IMG/VR virus record: IMGVR_UViG_3300025933_000007
Coordinates: 1-27,675 of that record
Length of the DNA: 27,675 bases
Source of the DNA: a virus
Strand: one strand, 5' to 3'
The notes under the pieces are model-generated. The model was not told where the DNA came from and did no database searches. It saw nothing but the letters and a program-made list of their open reading frames with translations. A program made the translations under genes and the position numbers. Numbering within the stretch: position 1 is the stretch's first letter; each line of letters opens with the position of its first letter. Below are positions 6,031 to 23,212 of the stretch, in pieces.

Positions 6031-6447
6031 TCAGCCCTCCTTCTTGGGGACGCGCACGACCAGGACGGCCGGGACGATCTCGTGGTGGACGCCGAGACCG
6101 GCGGCATTCGCCCAGCCGATACGCTTGCTCAATTCAGCCTGGGCCAGCTGCAAGCTGCCCGAGAATCCGATGATGCGACCAAGGCGCCATGCATGGGTGT
6201 AGTCGCGGTGACTGGCCGAGCTACGCTTACTGACGGTGCCGTCAGACCAGCGTGCCTCATACTTGAGCGGCGGCGCCCGGCGGGTGGCGACAAGGGCCTC
6301 GCCCGCGAGTTCAGGATAGCGCTGGACGGCGGCCAGGACGGCGGCTTCCTCGCTGACCGCCTTGACCGACGCGACATGGGAATACTGGCCATGGAACAGC
6401 GGGGCGCCGGGAGCGGTGCGGACATCAAACTTGTAAAGACGGGCCAT
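6031..6447 (-). CDS. First gene of leftward early operon, hypothetical (138 aa)
   Basis: The ATG at 6447 is chosen for its AAAGGA site in the repeated leader; the ORF from 6492 would run through the operator. The product starts MARLYKFDVRTAPGAPLFHG and contains an EEAAVLAAVQRYPEL helix, then a basic middle (KRSSASHRDYTHAWR) and a VPAVLVVRVPKKEG tail. The start of the sequence resembles small proteins that present a beta strand then a helix, but no function is known. It is transcribed from the promoter at 6483-6511 and is the gene most directly under the dyad operator of the divergent region. Confidence 0.75.
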   Translation of the reverse strand: MARLYKFDVRTAPGAPLFHGQYSHVASVKAVSEEAAVLAAVQRYPELAGEALVATRRAPPLKYEARWSDGTVSKRSSASHRDYTHAWRLGRIIGFSGSLQLAQAELSKRIGWANAAGLGVHHEIVPAVLVVRVPKKEG

Positions 6448-6482
6448 CGGTTTTTCCTTTCGAGTGGCGGGGTGACCATCCC

Positions 6483-6511
6483 CATCTAACAAGCCGCGCT
6501 TGTATTTGCAA
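6483..6511 (-). promoter_or_regulatory. Leftward early promoter with operator dyad (site C)
   Basis: On the minus strand, -35 TTGCAA (6511-6506), a 17-nt spacer and -10 TAGATG (6488-6483), 36 nt before the ATG at 6447. The spacer contains the perfect dyad ACAAG-N5-CTTGT at 6489-6503. A 29-nt block (6487-6515) is repeated with two changes at 24513-24541. The -10 is weak by itself, so promoter identity leans on the conserved geometry. Confidence 0.65.
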
Positions 6512-6532
6512 GAGGGTTGTGCAATAATTTAT

Positions 6533-6561
6533 TTGTCCTTTTCCGTGTACAAGCTTACATG
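6533..6561 (+). promoter_or_regulatory. Candidate rightward promoter for the regulator gene
   Basis: TTGTCC (6533-6538), a 17-nt spacer, then TACATG (6556-6561), about 40 nt before the TTG start at 6602. The spacer contains a single ACAAG half-site, not a full dyad. A later TTGACG at 6567 is too close to the ribosome site to be its -35. Strength is uncertain. Confidence 0.4.
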
Positions 6562-6601
6562 GTGGATTGACGACAGGTTATTTTGCGTATAGGAGGCAGA
6601 A

Positions 6602-6904
6602 TTGAGTAGTAAGCATCAACATTTCGTCCAGAAGGCCATCGACATCCTGGGCAGTCAGACCGCCCTGGCCAAGGCCCTCGGAATCTCGCAGCAGGGTATC
6701 TCTTATCTGCTGCGGCATACCAGCAAGCCGACCGCCGAAATGTCACTGCGGATTGAGAAGGTCACGAAGGGCAAGGTTACCCGGTCTCAGCTACGGCCGG
6801 ATCTGTATGGCGGCTACAAGAAGAAGCCAAAGAGACCAGACGGCGACAGCACCAGTAATGCGTCACAGTCGTCTGCAGCTGCCGGTGAGGGCGTCACCCA
6901 GTAG
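6602..6904 (+). CDS. Cro/YdaS-like HTH transcriptional regulator
   Basis: A 100-residue DNA-binding protein starting at TTG 6602 behind a perfect GGAGG at 5 nt; no ATG fits. A helix-turn-helix spans residues ~16-45 (GSQTALAKALGISQQGISYL then a basic wing KPTAEMSLRIEKVTKGKVTR), followed by SQLRPDLY. That is the hallmark of Cro/YdaS-type regulators, whose tail commonly reads ..GKVTRxxLRPDLYP. The last ~30 residues are Ser/Lys rich and probably disordered. Its position at the divergent control region makes it the best visible candidate to bind the ACAAG-N5-CTTGT dyads. It lacks a CI-type protease domain, so it may be Cro-like, with the maintenance repressor elsewhere. Confidence 0.88.
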   Translation: MSSKHQHFVQKAIDILGSQTALAKALGISQQGISYLLRHTSKPTAEMSLRIEKVTKGKVTRSQLRPDLYGGYKKKPKRPDGDSTSNASQSSAAAGEGVTQ

Positions 6905-6944
6905 GCTATCACCCCTACTCACTACCCTCTCCCTCACCGGCAGC
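6878..6944 (+). terminator. Long stem spanning the regulator stop codon
   Basis: A perfect 14-bp inverted repeat (6878-6891 with 6931-6944) encloses the stop codon and an inner 6-bp stem (6900-6905 with 6914-6919). The following bases are GCCCCTTTCAG, with no long U tract, so it may be a Rho-assisted terminator, a message-stabilising 3' end or an attenuator for the downstream genes. Confidence 0.45.
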
Positions 6945-6969
6945 GCCCCTTTCAGTGTGGTGAGGACTC

Positions 6970-7197
6970 ATGAAGATGAAGATGATCATGGCGCGGCTGA
7001 AAGGCGGCGCCATCATCATGTATGAGCACAGCCAGGAATCCGGTCATGGCCGCTACAGCATCGACGGAAGGCTGCTCACGAAGCGTCAGATTGCAATTCT
7101 GAAACAGCGCCACAAGCTGCAGCCGAATGGCGATTTTCTCGACTTCTCAGGTAATGACTTACCGCAATCATGGAGCTTACATGGCGACAAGCGTTGA
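6970..7197 (+). CDS. Small basic hypothetical protein (75 aa)
   Basis: The ATG follows GAGG at 4 nt; further in-frame methionines at codons 3, 5 and 7 leave the exact start open. The product has a hydrophobic patch (GGAIIMYEH), then HGRYSIDGRLLTKRQIAILK, a basic helix that could bind nucleic acid. No family was recognised. It lies between the regulator and the replication genes and overlaps the next gene by 17 nt. Confidence 0.62.
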   Translation: MKMKMIMARLKGGAIIMYEHSQESGHGRYSIDGRLLTKRQIAILKQRHKLQPNGDFLDFSGNDLPQSWSLHGDKR

Positions 7198-7387
7198 CTG
7201 TGGGTTATGTCAGTCCTCCTACCATTATCGCGGCAGAAAAATCTGTGGATTGCATGGGATGTCCACTCCCTTCGCCCGCGCCGATGTGACACTGTGTGGA
7301 CCTGACGCGCGCGATTTCCGGGCGCTGGGTGAAGGGTCCGACAATGTCAAAAATCGAAAGGCTAAAGAGCCTGGGGCTGACGGCTGA
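7181..7387 (+). CDS. Small cysteine-rich protein (68 aa)
   Basis: The ATG at 7181 has GGAG 5 nt upstream; the longer ORF from 7127 lacks a site. The product has DCGLCQ (C-x2-C at ~7-10), then KICGLHG, then TLCG, giving four cysteines and two histidines in about 35 residues, suggestive of a zinc knuckle. It overlaps the following replication gene by 44 nt, which is more than usual here, so confidence is moderate. No family was recognised. Confidence 0.55.
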   Translation: MATSVDCGLCQSSYHYRGRKICGLHGMSTPFARADVTLCGPDARDFRALGEGSDNVKNRKAKEPGADG

Positions 7388-7970
7388 GCAGTTCCAGGTG
7401 GTGATGGAGGTTGTAGCAGAGGCGGAATCCTGGAAGGCCGAGCGGCTGGCGAAGGGAGCGGCCCGGCAAGCTCGATACTGGAAGGGGAAGCAACGTCATC
7501 TGACGTCACTGACGTCAGTCGCAATAGAGATTCCCTCCAATGTTATACCCCTCAATAGAGGGAAAGAAGAAAAGGAAGGGAAGAACCTCCCTATAGTGGG
7601 CGGCGACCCTGACGTCAGTCTGACGTCAGATTTCAAGGCCTTCTGGCAAACCTATCCCAAACGGGCCGGGAACAGCCGCCGCAAAGCCGCCTTTGCCGCC
7701 TTCAAGGCAGCGCTCAAGCATACTTCCGCTCAAGAGATCGTTGCCGGGGCTGCCCGTTATGCGGCGTATTGCGATGGGGAAGAAAAGACCGGCACGCCGT
7801 TTGTGCAGCAGGCCGGGAATTGGCTCAAAGATCATGCATGGGAGGAAACCTATGAGCGTAGGCAGACGAAACGAGAATTCAGGGAAGCCATCGGCCGGGA
7901 GGAAGATGGCGAGTGCAGCGGCGAGGGCTATATTGGCCCGCTATACAGCTGGCGAGAACGCATCGAATGA
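7344..7970 (+). CDS. O-like phage replication initiator
   Basis: A 208-residue protein. The start at ATG 7344 has GAAGGG 7 nt upstream and the product begins MSKIERLKSLGLTAEQF, a common opening of alphaproteobacterial phage replication proteins. After a basic helix (AARQARYWKGK) there is a low-complexity linker, then a C-terminal domain FKAFWQTYPKRAGNSRRKAA (~94-113) with a later TPFVQQAGNWLKDHAWEE. This FWxxYPxR...A..W(L)....W pattern is typical of the helicase-interacting domains of replisome organisers. The DNA coding for the linker holds four TGACGTCA octamers, mirroring the placement of the lambda origin inside O. Assignment is by pattern, not by database search. Confidence 0.75.
   Translation: MSKIERLKSLGLTAEQFQVVMEVVAEAESWKAERLAKGAARQARYWKGKQRHLTSLTSVAIEIPSNVIPLNRGKEEKEGKNLPIVGGDPDVSLTSDFKAFWQTYPKRAGNSRRKAAFAAFKAALKHTSAQEIVAGAARYAAYCDGEEKTGTPFVQQAGNWLKDHAWEETYERRQTKREFREAIGREEDGECSGEGYIGPLYSWRERIE
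7492..7628. other. Predicted replication origin: TGACGTCA iterons inside the O-like gene
   Basis: Perfect TGACGTCA octamers lie at 7501-7508, 7510-7517, 7610-7617 and 7621-7628; a degenerate copy (AACGTCAT) is at 7492-7499. They form two clusters with 9-11 bp periodicity. Between them is an AT- and purine-rich stretch, with a CCCTC-AATA-GAGGG inverted repeat at 7549-7562. The lambda-like logic (initiator gene containing iterons next to an easily melted region) supports an origin; this is inference. Confidence 0.6.
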
Positions 7971-8598
7971 TTTTTTCCTGGAGCTAGTCGGAATCCTTCA
8001 GGAGCAGACGCCGATCATGGTCGATATGATCCAAGACCGCTACATGGGGGTCACCGCCAAGCATCCGCACTACATCCCGTCAATCGGTGAAGTGGTGGCG
8101 CTGATTGATCACTTCCAGGCCGAGATCGATATCGCGACAGAAAGGGCGCTTAAGGATTACCACAATAGACCCTACACGGGTGATCCTGATGCGCCATGGG
8201 CTCCGCAAAAGCGGGGCGAGCCGCGCTATGCCTATCTGCAGCGCAAATATGCTCACCGCATCAAGGTGGAGTACAAATCAACAGAAGGCATGGCATTGCG
8301 AAATTACTACCGCGCCAAGGCTGGGCACGAGCCACCGAATTATCCGCATGGGTACTTTTATTTCGAGCCGTCAGCCATCGACATTGCTGTTCAATGGGAT
8401 CAGGAGAATAAGCGGGAATCCGCGCCCCGACCGCCCTTCCGGCCCTTCCCGAAGCTCTGGGAGGCCTTCGTGGACGAGCCTGACCTCCTGGACCCCCAGA
8501 AGAATCTCCTCACCTTCGCCCAATTATTCGATGCCTCGCGCGCCCTGGCGACACGCGGCAAGGATGCGGCGCGCACCATACTGGATCCAGGCCGATGA
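7852..8598 (+). CDS. Replication-associated protein, P-like helicase-loader candidate (248 aa)
   Basis: The ATG at 7852 has an excellent GGAGG at 6 nt, giving a 119-nt overlap with the O-like gene; an internal ATG at 7906 would shorten it. A helical part (FFLELVGILQEQTPIMVDMI, ~35-54) leads to AKHPHYIPSIGEVVALIDHF (~64-83). That resembles the ..FLPSxGxFVxWC segment of phage replication proteins P, which load the host DnaB helicase. The C-terminal half is aromatic and basic (RYAYLQRKYAHRIKVEY; YPHGYFYFEP) and unlike proteins I recognise. Adjacent to an O-like gene, the loader role is plausible but not shown. Confidence 0.72.
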   Translation: MSVGRRNENSGKPSAGRKMASAAARAILARYTAGENASNDFFLELVGILQEQTPIMVDMIQDRYMGVTAKHPHYIPSIGEVVALIDHFQAEIDIATERALKDYHNRPYTGDPDAPWAPQKRGEPRYAYLQRKYAHRIKVEYKSTEGMALRNYYRAKAGHEPPNYPHGYFYFEPSAIDIAVQWDQENKRESAPRPPFRPFPKLWEAFVDEPDLLDPQKNLLTFAQLFDASRALATRGKDAARTILDPGR

Positions 8599-8744
8599 AC
8601 ATGGCTGACGGTTTATACCAAGTGACCACCAGCTATCTATGCGCCGGGTATGTCATCGAGAACGGCAAGCTGACCGCGTGCGCGCCAATCTTGCGCAAGC
8701 GTTTCAGCTATTGGGCAACCATCGCGAGGTTTATCTGTCGATGA
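8595..8744 (+). CDS. Small conserved phage protein (49 aa)
   Basis: The start ATG 8595 overlaps the previous stop (ATGA); a second ATG at 8601 gives 47 residues. The product contains YQVTTSYLCAGYVIENGKLT (~8-27) and ends in APILRKRFSYWATIARFICR. This matches a familiar short phage protein type whose core is xxVTTxYLCAGxVxxxGxV...APILR; its function is unknown to me. It ends in an ATGA overlap with the next gene. Confidence 0.75.
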   Translation: MNMADGLYQVTTSYLCAGYVIENGKLTACAPILRKRFSYWATIARFICR

Positions 8745-9010
8745 AATTCATTCGCAATCCCAAGCCGGTGACGGCGCAGCGTTCACGCGCCCGTCATCTT
8801 GCCCACAAGCGCAAGGCCAAGCCCGCCCCGCCGCCGCCCGATGAGGTTTCGCTATTGCTCGATCATCTGATTGAGGCTATGGGACGTTTGTCACCAGGGG
8901 CACTTGTCGATTATCTGCAGTGGAGGAAAACCCATGTCGAGAATAGACATCGAGCGCGCCGAGTGGTCGGAGATCCTGAAACTGACAAAACAGCTGATGG
9001 GGCAACTTGA
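8741..9010 (+). CDS. Small basic/proline-rich hypothetical protein (89 aa)
   Basis: The ATG overlaps the preceding stop. Residues 1-35 are very basic and end in a proline run (RARHLAHKRKAKPAPPPPDE); an amphipathic helix VSLLLDHLIEAMGRLSPGAL follows. The last ~25 codons overlap the next gene by 77 nt and are Arg-rich without recognised structure. The C-terminus is the least certain part. No family was recognised. Confidence 0.55.
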   Translation: MKFIRNPKPVTAQRSRARHLAHKRKAKPAPPPPDEVSLLLDHLIEAMGRLSPGALVDYLQWRKTHVENRHRARRVVGDPETDKTADGAT

Positions 9011-9176
9011 TGAGTTTATCGACCTTTGCCTCGATGAGGGTGATATCAAGGAGGCCCTACATTGGGCGTCCTTTGAGACCCAGATTAAGGCGCATGTACC
9101 GCTGATCGAGGAGCTAGCGCGGCTGCAGGAACTCCACAAGCTCGTGGAGGAGCCGGAATCCGACCACGACAGTTGA
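8934..9176 (+). CDS. Small helical acidic protein (80 aa)
   Basis: The ATG at 8934 follows GGAGGAAAACCC, the initiation leader repeated in this genome. The product is helical and acidic, SRIDIERAEWSEILKLTKQL then EFIDLCLDEGDIKEALHWAS, and ends with a leucine-rich helix ELARLQELHKLVEE. It could form a helical hairpin or dimer. The function is unknown. Confidence 0.75.
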   Translation: MSRIDIERAEWSEILKLTKQLMGQLDEFIDLCLDEGDIKEALHWASFETQIKAHVPLIEELARLQELHKLVEEPESDHDS

Positions 9177-9207
9177 TCCGTATGCCCCTTGAGATTATTA
9201 AGGGCTT

Positions 9208-9702
9208 ATGGGCAAAGAGCGCTGGTATGTGGTGATGACCAGGGCATCGGCAGAATGGCAGACCCATCGCGAGATTCTCACTACCGGCCTGCAATGCTTC
9301 TACCCGATGACCGTGGCAACAGGGCGCCGGGGCCGATGGTCTCAGGGCGTCGTTCGCCCACAGTTCCCAGGTTACTTGTTCCTCGGCCTGGGAGAAGGCG
9401 AGACGGTTGACCGGGTAAGGCGGCTGACCGGGGTGCGTGACTTCCTGCGGACCGCAGGCTCCATGGTGGTGATGCCCCCGGCTCAGTTGGAAAGGTGTCG
9501 AACAGTGTGTGACGAGCGCTTCAAGGACAGCTTCCCGAAGCTGAACAAACAGACCACGGTGAAGCCGGGAGACTGGACCACGATTCCGAGTGGACCTTTC
9601 AAGGGCGTGCCGGTCGAGGTCAAGGCGATTGACAAGCGGGGCCGGATCAGCGCATCAATCGGCAACCTGGAGGTTACCTTCCAGACTTGTGCTGCACCCT
9701 GA
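9208..9702 (+). CDS. Phage-encoded NusG/RfaH-family transcription elongation factor
   Basis: A 164-residue protein with NusG architecture. The NGN domain opens with RWYVVMTRASAEW (5-17), has RPQFPGYLFLGL (50-61, the conserved PxFPGYxF), and GVRDFLR (75-81). A linker leads to a KOW domain: VKPGDWTTIPSGPFKGVPVE (118-137), AIDKRGRISASIG and a final strand. Family knowledge: NGN binds the RNA polymerase clamp and suppresses pausing or termination; specialised paralogues act on chosen operons through DNA or RNA signals. It is the third gene before a ~410-nt structured, gene-free region ahead of the terminase genes, so a late-gene antiterminator role is likely but inferred. The ribosome site is AAGGG at a short 3-nt spacing. 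Confidence 0.88.
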   Translation: MGKERWYVVMTRASAEWQTHREILTTGLQCFYPMTVATGRRGRWSQGVVRPQFPGYLFLGLGEGETVDRVRRLTGVRDFLRTAGSMVVMPPAQLERCRTVCDERFKDSFPKLNKQTTVKPGDWTTIPSGPFKGVPVEVKAIDKRGRISASIGNLEVTFQTCAAP

Positions 9703-9747
9703 AAGTGCACCGCGCTGTGCGAAGCTTGAGCAGGAAAGGCTTGAGAC

Positions 9748-9969
9748 ATGACGAGATCCGAGTTCATCACCGAATATTTGAGACGCGAGGGCCTGCCCGA
9801 CAGTTGTCGGACTGTCACCGGATTCAAGACCCGTGAATTCGAGCGTGTTGCGCTGCCGTGCAACTGCGGACTGCCGGAATGCACCGGCTGGGCCATGGTG
9901 CCGCCTTACGATGCCCGTAAGCACGAAAAGGTGTTCGGCATGGGTCAGATGATGGGCCTTGTGTCCTGA
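9748..9969 (+). CDS. Small zinc-motif protein (73 aa)
   Basis: The ATG follows AAAGG at ~8 nt. The central segment LPCNCGLPECTGWAMVPP (~36-53) has a C-x-C-x4-C cluster, suggestive of a metal knuckle, and the N-terminus is a short amphipathic helix SEFITEYLRREGLPDS. The ending is methionine-rich. No family was recognised. It overlaps the next gene by one base (TGATG). Confidence 0.68.
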   Translation: MTRSEFITEYLRREGLPDSCRTVTGFKTREFERVALPCNCGLPECTGWAMVPPYDARKHEKVFGMGQMMGLVS

Positions 9970-10274
9970 TGGCGCAGACCTCGCCCACCTGGAAGCTGGT
10001 CAATGTGCTCGATGAGCCCGGCGGTAGCCAATGGGTCAACATGTATTACATAGTGCGGATGCGGCCGACACCGCGAGGCACGGTTCTGTTTTTTGCGGAT
10101 GCCACCCGCACCATGGTGGAAGGGACACCGGACAATCTGGTGCCCGCTTACGACCCGGTGGTTCAGCCTTTGCCTGCCGCTCTTCCAGAGCAGCTGCCTT
10201 GGGAGAGCACTTGGAATCCCGAGACCCCTGGTGAGGCGGATTTCGCCGTCCCGCCGGACATCGGTCCACAATAG
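9969..10274 (+). CDS. Hypothetical protein (101 aa)
   Basis: The ATG shares a base with the previous stop. The first half is beta-like (WKLVNVLDEPGGSQWVNMYY; GTVLFFADATRTMVEGTP), resembling a small SH3-like or barrel fold; the last 35 residues are proline-rich and probably flexible. No family was recognised. It is the last coding gene before the structured region that precedes the packaging genes. Confidence 0.7.
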   Translation: MAQTSPTWKLVNVLDEPGGSQWVNMYYIVRMRPTPRGTVLFFADATRTMVEGTPDNLVPAYDPVVQPLPAALPEQLPWESTWNPETPGEADFAVPPDIGPQ

Positions 10275-10687
10275 TGGATCAATGCTAGCCTCATCAGGGA
10301 CTACCTTTCGCACCGGAGATTCACCTCCCCAGTGCGGAAAAGCCCGGCGAGTGAGGCCCTTTTCCTCACCGCACCAAGCTCTTCGCGGTGCTTGGCAGGT
10401 GTTCCGGGGACCGTAAGGCCCGGATGGGCATCCTCGCCGGGTGCAATTTCATCACCAGCCCAGAACTGGTGAAACGGCCGGAGCCGGGATCGCCTAACCC
10501 AGTAAGTGCCCCTCACTTGGGTAAGCCGCACATGCCCCGGTTCCGGCCTAACCCTTCGATCCGCTACCCTGGAGCGCAACGCCAGCAGGTAGGGCTCGAG
10601 CCCTGGGGGCGGCCAAATCCCCCGCGTGCATTGGACCGTCTCAGGTTCAGCCGCTCCCAGGGATTTTTACGTGAGGTTAATTTACAA
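10275..10687 (+). ncRNA. Unclassified structured RNA or long structured leader upstream of terminase
   Basis: About 410 nt without a credible gene. Stems on the plus strand include: 10332-10337/10369-10374 with nested 10352-10356/10364-10368; 10374-10379/10390-10395; 10404-10408/10419-10423; 10452-10458/10466-10472 (7 bp); 10504-10508/10514-10518 with outer 10497-10500/10519-10522; 10564-10568/10588-10592; palindrome 10592-10603; and 10605-10609/10619-10623 (G5/C5). A long-range helix 10567-10576/10652-10662, with one bulge, closes the last domain just before AUUUUU. GGAAAAG 10336-10342 can instead pair CUUUUCC 10359-10365. No tRNA, intron or named riboswitch was recognised. It may be a leader acted on by the NusG-like protein, a separate ncRNA, or packaging-site DNA. 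Confidence 0.5.
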
Positions 10688-11104
10688 ATGCCGCGCGGCA
10701 AGCCATTTGCCCACCCACGGCGCAACAGCCCAGGTCGCCCCAAGGGTGCGGTCAGCAAGGTCACCTACGACATCCGCATGATCGCCCAGGAGTACACCCC
10801 GGACGCGGTCAAGCTCCTCTGGAGCATCGCCAACAAGCCCAAGACACCGGCCGTGGCCAAGATCCTGGCCATCCGCGAGATCCTCGACCGGGCGCACGGC
10901 AAGTCCATCCAGCCCCTCACCAACGGCACCAATGGCGCGGGCGTCATCGTGGAGCTAATCACTTTTGCAGATGCCCTTAGACGCCCCGCAATTGAGCACC
11001 AGCGGCCGGAAGCGGATCACCCTACCCGCAATGGGGTGGACGCCGAGACCGTATCAGGCGCCCCTCTGGGAGTACCTGGAGACGGGCGGCAAGAGGGCGA
11101 TTGA
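10688..11104 (+). CDS. Terminase small subunit-like protein
   Basis: A 138-residue protein starting at ATG 10688, with a GAGG 11 nt upstream. It opens with a basic arm containing GRPKGAVSKVTYDIR (~16-30), then a helix pair (DAVKLLWSIANKPKTPAVAK; AIREILDRAHGKSIQP). This GRPKGxxxKxT..R...(A)xxLL...A..K..LDRxYGK layout is common in proteins encoded directly before terminase large subunits. Known role: recognise the packaging site and regulate the large subunit. The last ~45 residues overlap the large-subunit gene and look like frame-shared tail. No clear HTH can be named, so the function rests on context plus pattern. Confidence 0.72.
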   Translation: MPRGKPFAHPRRNSPGRPKGAVSKVTYDIRMIAQEYTPDAVKLLWSIANKPKTPAVAKILAIREILDRAHGKSIQPLTNGTNGAGVIVELITFADALRRPAIEHQRPEADHPTRNGVDAETVSGAPLGVPGDGRQEGD

Positions 11105-12380
11105 GGTCGCCCATCGGCGCTGGGGCAAGGACGAGATCGCCCTGCACTGGGCGGCCATGGCGGCGCATCGCCGGGTCGGCAACTACTGGCATTGCCTGCC
11201 CGAGTTCGCCCAGGCCAGGAAGGCGATCTGGACGGCGATCAATCCGCACACCGGGCGGCGCCGCATTGACGAGGCTTTCCCGCTCGAATTGCGGGCCAAT
11301 ACCAATGATCATGAGATGTTTCTGCGGCTGCTGAACGGCAGCACCTTTCAGGTCATCGGCTCAGATAATTACGAGACCCTGGTGGGAACCCCGCCAGCGG
11401 GAATCGTGTTCAGCGAATGGGCCAGGGCGAACCCTTCCGCCTGGGCTTATCTGGCACCAATCTTGGTGGAGAATGGCGGCTGGGCGGTCTTTATCACCAC
11501 ACCGCTCGGCCGCAACCACGCCCTGCACACGCTGAACCTGGGGCGCGCGACGCCCGACTGGTTCGCGGAGGTCTCGACGGTCGAGGATTCCGGAGCGATA
11601 CCTCTCGAGGTTGTAGAAGAGCAACGTCGGGAGTATCACCATATCTATGGCGAGGATGCCGGTGACGCACTTATACAACAAGAGTTCTGGTGCTCGTTCG
11701 AAGCGGCCATATTGGGTTCGTATTACGGCAAGCTCATCGTCCAGGCCGAACGCCAGGGCCGCATCACCCGAGTGGCATACGACCCAGCCCTACCTGTCCA
11801 TACCGCCTGGGATCTCGGTAAGGGCGCAAATATGGCAATCTGGTGCTGGCAGATCACCGGCAATGAGATACGGGTGCTGTGGTCGATCAACGGCGCTCAT
11901 GATGAGGTGATCCCCGACTGCGTCGCCAAGCTCAACCGCCTGCCGGTCACGACCTGGGGCTATGACTACGTGCCCCATGACGCCAAGGTGCTGGAGCTTG
12001 GCACCCGCAAGACCAGGGTCGAGGCATTCGGTGACCTGGGCCGCAAGCCGCAGCTGGTGCCGGAGCACCGGGTCGAGGACGGAATCCATGCCGCAAGGCA
12101 GGCGCTGCCGGTGTGCTGGTTCGATGAGGAAGGGTGCCGCGAAGGCCTGGAGGCCTTGCGCCAGTACCGGGCCGCCTGGGACCCGGACAAGCGGGTGTTC
12201 CGCAACATCCCTGAGCATGATTTCTCCAGCCACTATGCCGATGCGTTCAGGTATCTGGCGATGTCCTGGCGCCGGATCAAAGCCGATCCGCCGCCGAAGC
12301 CCAGGGGCCGGACGATTCACGAAATGACGCTCGATGAGGCGTGGAAGCTCCGCGAGCCCGAGCGGCCGGGCAGGATATAA
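10971..12380 (+). CDS. terL: Terminase large subunit
   Basis: A packaging motor of ~469 residues. The ATPase domain has the conserved entry WTPRPYQAPLWEYLETGGKR, Walker A-like HRRWGKDE (~49-56) and a Walker B-like GIVFSEWA (~144-151, with Ser preceding the catalytic Glu), then the coupling motif FITTPLGRNH. The RNase H-like nuclease domain shows HTAWDLGKG (first Asp), DYVPHDAK and HYADAFRYL (last Asp). The best start is uncertain: ATG 10971 keeps the conserved ITLP block; TTG 10965 and ATG 11031 are alternatives. It overlaps the small-subunit gene by 134 nt with this start. It translocates DNA into the prohead through the portal encoded next. Confidence 0.95.
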   Translation: MPLDAPQLSTSGRKRITLPAMGWTPRPYQAPLWEYLETGGKRAIEVAHRRWGKDEIALHWAAMAAHRRVGNYWHCLPEFAQARKAIWTAINPHTGRRRIDEAFPLELRANTNDHEMFLRLLNGSTFQVIGSDNYETLVGTPPAGIVFSEWARANPSAWAYLAPILVENGGWAVFITTPLGRNHALHTLNLGRATPDWFAEVSTVEDSGAIPLEVVEEQRREYHHIYGEDAGDALIQQEFWCSFEAAILGSYYGKLIVQAERQGRITRVAYDPALPVHTAWDLGKGANMAIWCWQITGNEIRVLWSINGAHDEVIPDCVAKLNRLPVTTWGYDYVPHDAKVLELGTRKTRVEAFGDLGRKPQLVPEHRVEDGIHAARQALPVCWFDEEGCREGLEALRQYRAAWDPDKRVFRNIPEHDFSSHYADAFRYLAMSWRRIKADPPPKPRGRTIHEMTLDEAWKLREPERPGRI

Positions 12381-22240: not shown

Positions 22241-23212
22241 ATGGCTTCGCCAAATCTGAGCGAGATCATCACGACCACACTCCGCAATCGTACCGGCAAG
22301 CTGGCCGACAACGTGACGAAAAATAACGCGATCCTGCTCAAGCTTTCGGGCAAGGGCCGTGTTAAACCTGCGTCAGGCGGTCGGACCATCGTGCAGGAAC
22401 TCGAATATGCGGAAAATGGCACGTTCATGTATTACAGCGGCTACGAGCCCCTGAACGTGTCAACGTCAGATGTCATCACGGCGGCTGAGTACGACTGGAA
22501 ACAGGCGGCGGTCGCGGTGACCATCTCAGGCCTGGAGCAGCTGCAGAATGCGTCGGATGAGAAGGTCATCGACCTTCTGGAATCCCGCATCGGCAATGCC
22601 GAGAAAACCATGTCCAACCAGATCTCGGTTGGTCTGTATGGCGACGGCACCGGGTCGAGCGGCAAGGCTATCGGCGGCCTGCAGCTGCTGGTGGCTGACA
22701 CGCCGACGAGCGGCACGGTGGGCGGCATCAGCCGTCTCACCTACACGTTCTGGCGTAACTATAGCTTCGATGCCACGACTGACGGCACCGCAGCTGCGAC
22801 CAGCGCCAACATCACGTCCTACATGAACCGTGTCTACCTCGCAACAGCGAGGGGCAGGGATCATCCGGACCTGATCATCGCTGACAACAACTACTACAGG
22901 CTCTATCTGGAATCCTTGCAGACGATCCAGAGGGTCACCAATACGGAGCTTGCCGCTGCAGGCTTCGACAACCTGAAATATATGGGGGCTGATGTCGTCT
23001 ATGATGGCGGCATCGGTGGCGGTTGCCCCGCCAACCACATGTATTTCCTCAACACCGATTACATCTACTACCGGCCGCACTCGGCCAGGAACATGGTGCC
23101 CATCGGCGGCGAGCGCATGAACACCAACCAGGATGCAATTGTGAAACTAATTGGTTGGGCGGGCAACATGACCCTGTCAAACGCGATGCTGCAGGGCATC
23201 CTCAAGGATTAA
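22241..23212 (+). CDS. Major capsid protein (323 aa)
   Basis: The ATG follows GGAG at ~8 nt. Soluble alpha/beta protein beginning ASPNLSEIITTTLRNRTGKL. It includes a likely E-loop/N-arm region (FMYYSGYEPLNVSTSDVITA), a spine-helix candidate (LLESRIGNAEKTMSNQISVG) and P-domain-like strands (HPDLIIADNNYYRLYLESLQ). It ends with DAIVKLIGWAGNMTLSNAML. Size, order after the scaffold and the ending pattern support a HK97-fold coat protein. It is followed by a small decoration-like gene and a terminator hairpin. Confidence 0.9.
   Translation: MASPNLSEIITTTLRNRTGKLADNVTKNNAILLKLSGKGRVKPASGGRTIVQELEYAENGTFMYYSGYEPLNVSTSDVITAAEYDWKQAAVAVTISGLEQLQNASDEKVIDLLESRIGNAEKTMSNQISVGLYGDGTGSSGKAIGGLQLLVADTPTSGTVGGISRLTYTFWRNYSFDATTDGTAAATSANITSYMNRVYLATARGRDHPDLIIADNNYYRLYLESLQTIQRVTNTELAAAGFDNLKYMGADVVYDGGIGGGCPANHMYFLNTDYIYYRPHSARNMVPIGGERMNTNQDAIVKLIGWAGNMTLSNAMLQGILKD

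Follow-up and report, generated by a model that had tools for sequence, protein, structure and literature searches.

Most of what is known of late-gene control in phages concerns sigma factors, phage polymerases and Q. RfaH and LoaP are the only specialised NusG proteins whose choice of target is understood in detail (PMC7819879, PMC12691694). LoaP is a NusG paralogue of Bacillus velezensis that serves the dfn and mln operons, whose leaders contain a hairpin, which is required, and a terminator (PMC12691694). The ops element of RfaH, GGCGGTAGCGTG, matches the consensus pause (PMC5995543), and Q loads at a DNA site via a sigma-dependent pause at the late promoter (PMC7171158). A published description of phage NusG paralogues associated with late leaders was not found in the literature searched, outside which many subscription journals lie.

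The window, which is the whole stretch of DNA analysed here, is a virus fragment of 27,675 bases from IMG/VR that originates from a soil metagenome. Its YqaJ exonuclease and Erf recombination genes are oriented leftward, and a rightward operon begins at approximately 6.6 kb with a small ORF (6602-6904), which by position and sequence we take to be a putative Cro-like regulator, followed by the replication initiator. This operon closes with a NusG gene, two small genes and a gene-free leader, after which the genes for the small terminase, large terminase, portal, tail and head all lie on the + strand to the end of the window. The features of this region are as follows, where L001 and L013 are related viral contigs:

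9208..9702, + strand: NusG paralogue of 164 aa with NGN and KOW domains, candidate late antiterminator (PF02357, phrog_6386, AlphaFold/Foldseek, tree)
9748..9969, + strand: conserved small gene that encodes 73 aa, including a CNCGLPECTGW motif rich in Cys (ORF list; homologous stretch at the same place in L013)
9969..10274, + strand: second small gene, 101 aa, its start overlapping the preceding stop (counterpart in L013)
10275..10687, + strand: gene-free late-operon leader, 413 nt (fold z = -5.3; indels relative to L001)
10342..10442, + strand: three-way-junction RNA of about 100 nt (same fold in the window, L001 and L013; compensated pairs)
10367..10401, + strand: P2 hairpin (leader alignment; pair counts)
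10403..10424, + strand: P3 hairpin, UCCGGG-GA-CC-GNRA-GG-CCYGGA
10601..10670, + strand: terminator-like hairpin and tail, with 13-bp arms and a 36-nt loop, then AUUUUUAC, just 5' of terS
10688..11104, + strand: terS, small terminase-like, first gene of the late operon (phrog_15261, 7.4e-15; position before terL)
10974..12380, + strand: terL, large terminase subunit, about 51% identical to phage terminases
12445..14673, + strand: portal protein (phrog_12082, 1.3e-191)
22241-23212, + strand: major head protein

The initial annotation had described an NGN and KOW protein at 9208-9702, two short genes, a gene-free, hairpin-rich stretch of about 410 nt and co-directional late genes 3' of it; each of these elements is present, and the coordinates it gave are right. 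The anatomy suggests a late-gene switch, because the phage carries a NusG of its own, followed by a folded RNA and a terminator-like hairpin ahead of the late genes. The Cys-rich protein encoded between nusG and the leader (9748-9969) could be a partner of NusG or could bind zinc.

The protein encoded at 9208-9702 matches Pfam NusG (PF02357, 1.8e-11, residues 5-96) and is a member of phrog_6386 (1.7e-16), whose name, "transcription antiterminator", is an annotation for which neither a target nor a leader signal is described. The AlphaFold model of the protein, based on phage relatives (mean pLDDT 79), presents the NGN fold and a C-terminal beta barrel. The top structural matches of this model in Foldseek are NusG and RfaH in polymerase complexes, and the LoaP-RNA complex 8f5g is also among the matches, while by profile the protein is not closer to LoaP (1.6e-12) than to NusG (6e-24). 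In a tree, the housekeeping NusGs from six genomes of Alphaproteobacteria make up a single clade (100/99). Outside it, the NusGs of the window and L013 join each other (100/100) and share a long branch, with deep branches of the tree uncertain. This marks the window protein as a paralogue rather than a recent capture of the host NusG. Only NusG families were matched in Pfam and PHROGs, with no match to Q families, and tblastn against named phages retrieved no match. Other phage NusG paralogues (L054, L082, L030 and L069) seem to retain NGN, with no recognisable KOW domain.

The leader (10275-10687) folds at -193 kcal/mol, and 0/100 shuffles are as stable; the fold is slightly more extreme in the sense than in the antisense direction (z -4.35). 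The leader contains no terminase-like frame, and indels relative to L001 exclude conservation of any reading frame. Scanning 8600-11200 with Rfam 15 gave no meaningful match to a curated RNA family, and neither the leader DNA among named phages nor the RNA element among plasmids found a match. Folded separately, the window, L001 and L013 give the same three-way junction of helices P1, P2 and P3. The closing helix P1 pairs 10342-10359 with 10426-10442, and an unpaired UUUUCCU (10360-10366) lies between P1 and P2. The phages that keep this shape have NusG proteins 53-99% identical to that of the window (L013 53%, L001 99%).

The leaders of the window and L001 are near-identical, and their few differences fall largely in the P2 hairpin and the P3 tetraloop. 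In P2, AA/UU in the window becomes UC/GA in L001, a compensatory change of both arms. The loop of P3 is GUAA in the window, GAGA in L001 and GCAA in L013, three versions of GNRA, and its 2-nt GA bulge is conserved. P3 is the only long noncoding stretch common to the window and L013; P1 of L013 is a 12-bp helix of different sequence, reached by 5/2000 shuffles. In L013, the P3 region lies within a 92-aa ORF; a coding reading was discarded for the window clade, given the 1- and 2-nt indels in L001 and the lack of a conserved protein context.

Covariation in the leader, which the initial annotation had proposed to look for, is present: in an alignment of three distinct sequences fitted to the structure, 10 pairs are changed on both sides, with 4.3 expected and 0/500 shuffles as high. 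In this model-fitted alignment 96% of cells pair, and slid controls give 0 or 1 two-sided changes. A covariance model recovered the four known cases in 128 loci (L013 at E 2e-10) and nothing else significant among them, and the RNA model had no match in 385 genomes of one class, a set with no positive control genome. These changes also bear on the idea that the leader serves primarily as a cos or pac site for DNA packaging, next to terS, and that the NusG gene is a mere neighbor. The leader is gene-free and starts about 400 bp before terS, and lambda-type phages have their cos sites in gene-free DNA directly before terS. However, the GNRA swaps and the paired changes in two arms fit RNA rather than duplex DNA, the RNA module is kept between lineages whose terS-adjacent sequence is unalignable, and the core hairpin tracks the NusG type, which makes a primarily packaging function quite improbable.

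Among the 2.9 million viral contigs searched, three IMG/VR contigs contain P3 in its exact pattern, and a search with the alignment of the window and L013 NusGs returns the same three. Counting the window, RNA and NusG type occur together in 4/4 cases, which represent only two independent lineages; within this range, the gene and leader co-occur as the initial annotation would have them. The RNA might nevertheless act in cis on the late operon, as an attenuator or a regulator of translation that host factors or ribosomes read independently of the phage NusG, which would act elsewhere, perhaps in the early operon or on host transcription. The position of the terminator-like hairpin directly 5' of the terS ribosome-binding site would suit such a role, and the put RNAs of HK022, which need no phage protein (PMC9378689), provide a precedent. 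The strict co-occurrence of RNA and NusG type and the presence of a different element in another NusG clade (described below) argue against this explanation, which we consider unlikely.

Downstream of the three-way junction, the hairpin at 10601-10662 is followed by AUUUUU, and its score is equalled by 0/300 shuffled leaders. The hairpin has a long loop and is unlisted by a simple terminator scan with loops of 3-8 nt. No clear terminator is found between the RNA and terS in L013, so in that phage the barrier may depend on Rho or lie further away.

The best and simplest reading of this locus, with a probability of roughly 0.6, is late antitermination based on NusG, with leader signals that are specific to each clade. 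The NusG-type late antitermination that the initial annotation had proposed here is partly supported. The specialised NusG paralogue would act as the late antiterminator of the phage, expressed from the last part of the rightward early operon, the slot that Q occupies in lambda-type phages. Polymerases entering the leader would transcribe the three-way-junction RNA, and P3, GNRA-capped and GA-bulged, may recruit the NusG paralogue as the UNCG hairpin recruits Bacillus LoaP. The modified polymerase would then pass the terminator at 10601-10670 and proceed through a late operon of at least 17 kb. P3 is the putative binding site and the hairpin a presumed working terminator; readthrough would be protein dependent, and recruitment and pausing are likewise presumed.

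The arrangement resembles that of LoaP, also a NusG paralogue with NGN and KOW domains, in that a small leader hairpin precedes an intrinsic terminator and a long operon. In the window, P3 precedes the terminator-like hairpin, which has no clear counterpart in L013. LoaP differs in its lone UNCG hairpin and in serving antibiotic operons of Firmicutes, whereas the window has a GNRA hairpin with a GA bulge set in a three-way junction, without the UNCG feature, and its phage is related to phages and prophages of Proteobacteria. As with RfaH and ops, a specialised NusG paralogue would be loaded at a leader element, but an ops-like pause is absent from the window leader and present in the sister clade. 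RfaH is encoded apart from its targets. Its KOW domain is helical and autoinhibited, whereas that of the window NusG is predicted as a beta barrel in one AlphaFold model, though the protein may still switch fold. As both the UNCG and the ops features fail here, the window protein appears to be a new variant among specialised NusG paralogues.

Lambda Q has the same genome slot, at the end of the rightward early operon and before the late genes, and the same proposed job. However, it is unrelated to the window NusG, and whereas Q loads at a late promoter, a scan of the + strand over 6400-11100 detected no sigma-70-like promoter. The put element of HK022 is also a structured leader RNA thought to modify polymerase, but it acts without a phage protein, whereas the core hairpin of the window always accompanies the NusG type. 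The anatomy of the locus suggests a switch unlike N and Q, the textbook antiterminators of phages. Loading of a NusG-type factor at the late leader, if confirmed, would be a further solution to late-gene control and would supply natural pairs of NusG paralogue and target signal.

The position of NusG genes was surveyed with terL, and not NusG, as the query, to avoid bias. Of the terminase-related loci that extend 3 kb or more upstream, 12/78 contain a NusG paralogue. With shorter loci included, 16/16 NusG matches fall at 0.8-2.4 kb upstream of terL, all of them in the orientation of terL, and no other part of the loci contains one. NusG was undetected in the other 66/78 relatives, which implies that a late region of this type can work without it; for 107 proteins that occupy this slot in relatives lacking NusG, the top-ranking Pfam and PHROGs families include no Q-type family. 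The isolated Bradyrhizobium phage ppBjS10J-1, a prophage of Bradyrhizobium japonicum S10J with NusG WAX24484.1, has the same gene order as the window, and Labrenzia phage vB_LagS-V1 has a weak NusG-like gene just before the terminase on a circular record.

A sister NusG clade, formed by the Bradyrhizobium phage and its relatives, shares the element [G]CAAATCAG-N10-CAT-N5-CGGCCGGT-N-TTTCACCCGCCGGGNGGCTTGTGTCC after nusG. A scan for its core retrieved 20 viral contigs, 15 of which carry NusG upstream, with the element 77-261 nt after the end of nusG. The remaining contigs end within 440 nt upstream, except L140, where the element (1462-1483) is preceded by 1461 nt with no detectable NusG and followed by a strong terminator-like hairpin. 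Downstream of the element, a clear intrinsic terminator is present in 11/21 loci tested (matched by at most 1/40 shuffles), usually 24-60 nt after the element; in L003 the terminator lies at about 6302-6341. The sister-clade GGGNGGCTTGTG and ops have GG at positions 1-2 and TG at positions 11-12 in common. A helix of GGCCGGU and ACCCGCC with a single mismatch could also form and would end some 11 nt ahead of the presumed pause site. On this sequence likeness, GGGNGGCTTGTG may be a pause. The pause pattern GGN6TGYG is absent from the leaders of the window, L001 and L013, and an apparent similarity between a P1 strand of the window and the reversed sister element was judged to be chance. No match to the element was found in the 385 genomes of one class, again with no positive control genome included. 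The flanks retrieved for several sister-clade phages contain no related terminase; the protein and the element may therefore move together as a cassette.

These data also bear on whether phage NusG could be a decoy or competitor of host NusG that blocks Rho or transcription-translation coupling and has no specific leader. The NusG family binds RNA polymerase at a shared site, and phages are silenced by Rho (PMC7819879), but a general inhibitor needs neither a single pre-terminase slot in deeply diverged phages nor noncoding elements specific to each clade, and a decoy function is highly improbable. NusG-based late antitermination may extend further: phage NusG paralogues could be widespread, undescribed late antiterminators whose recruitment signals differ by clade, a GNRA three-way junction in one and a pause-like element with a terminator in the other. 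This generalization is tentative and falls somewhat short of even odds. If true, one protein family would have evolved both RNA-reading and pause- or DNA-reading recruitment inside phages. The phage NusG clades offer separable signals, and ppBjS10J-1 comes from a cultured host.

In the sister clade (L003, 6190-6370, and L135-L154), the conserved noncoding module after nusG contains CAAATCAG, CGGCCGGT and TTTCACCCGCCGGGNGGCTTGTGTCC, often with a GTTTCCTCCCTAGACT-like stretch and a terminator in whose loop CCCCCA tends to occur. Other NusG lineages of phages, deeply diverged and without the rest of this module, have CAAATCAG at most 15 nt after nusG, either as such or as the reverse complement within a hairpin (L015 at ~2327, L082 at ~4748 and L055 at ~3925). 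Just before terS, L013 (5500-5790) and the end region of L132 have repeated TTGACGCTACGTCCATGAA units and a perfect inverted repeat, and in this lineage the repeats are possibly an operator or promoter array. Finally, four copies of CTGACGTCA lie at 7499-7628 of the window, in two pairs 100 nt apart within the replication-initiator ORF, and are likely an iteron origin, as lambda has within its O gene.
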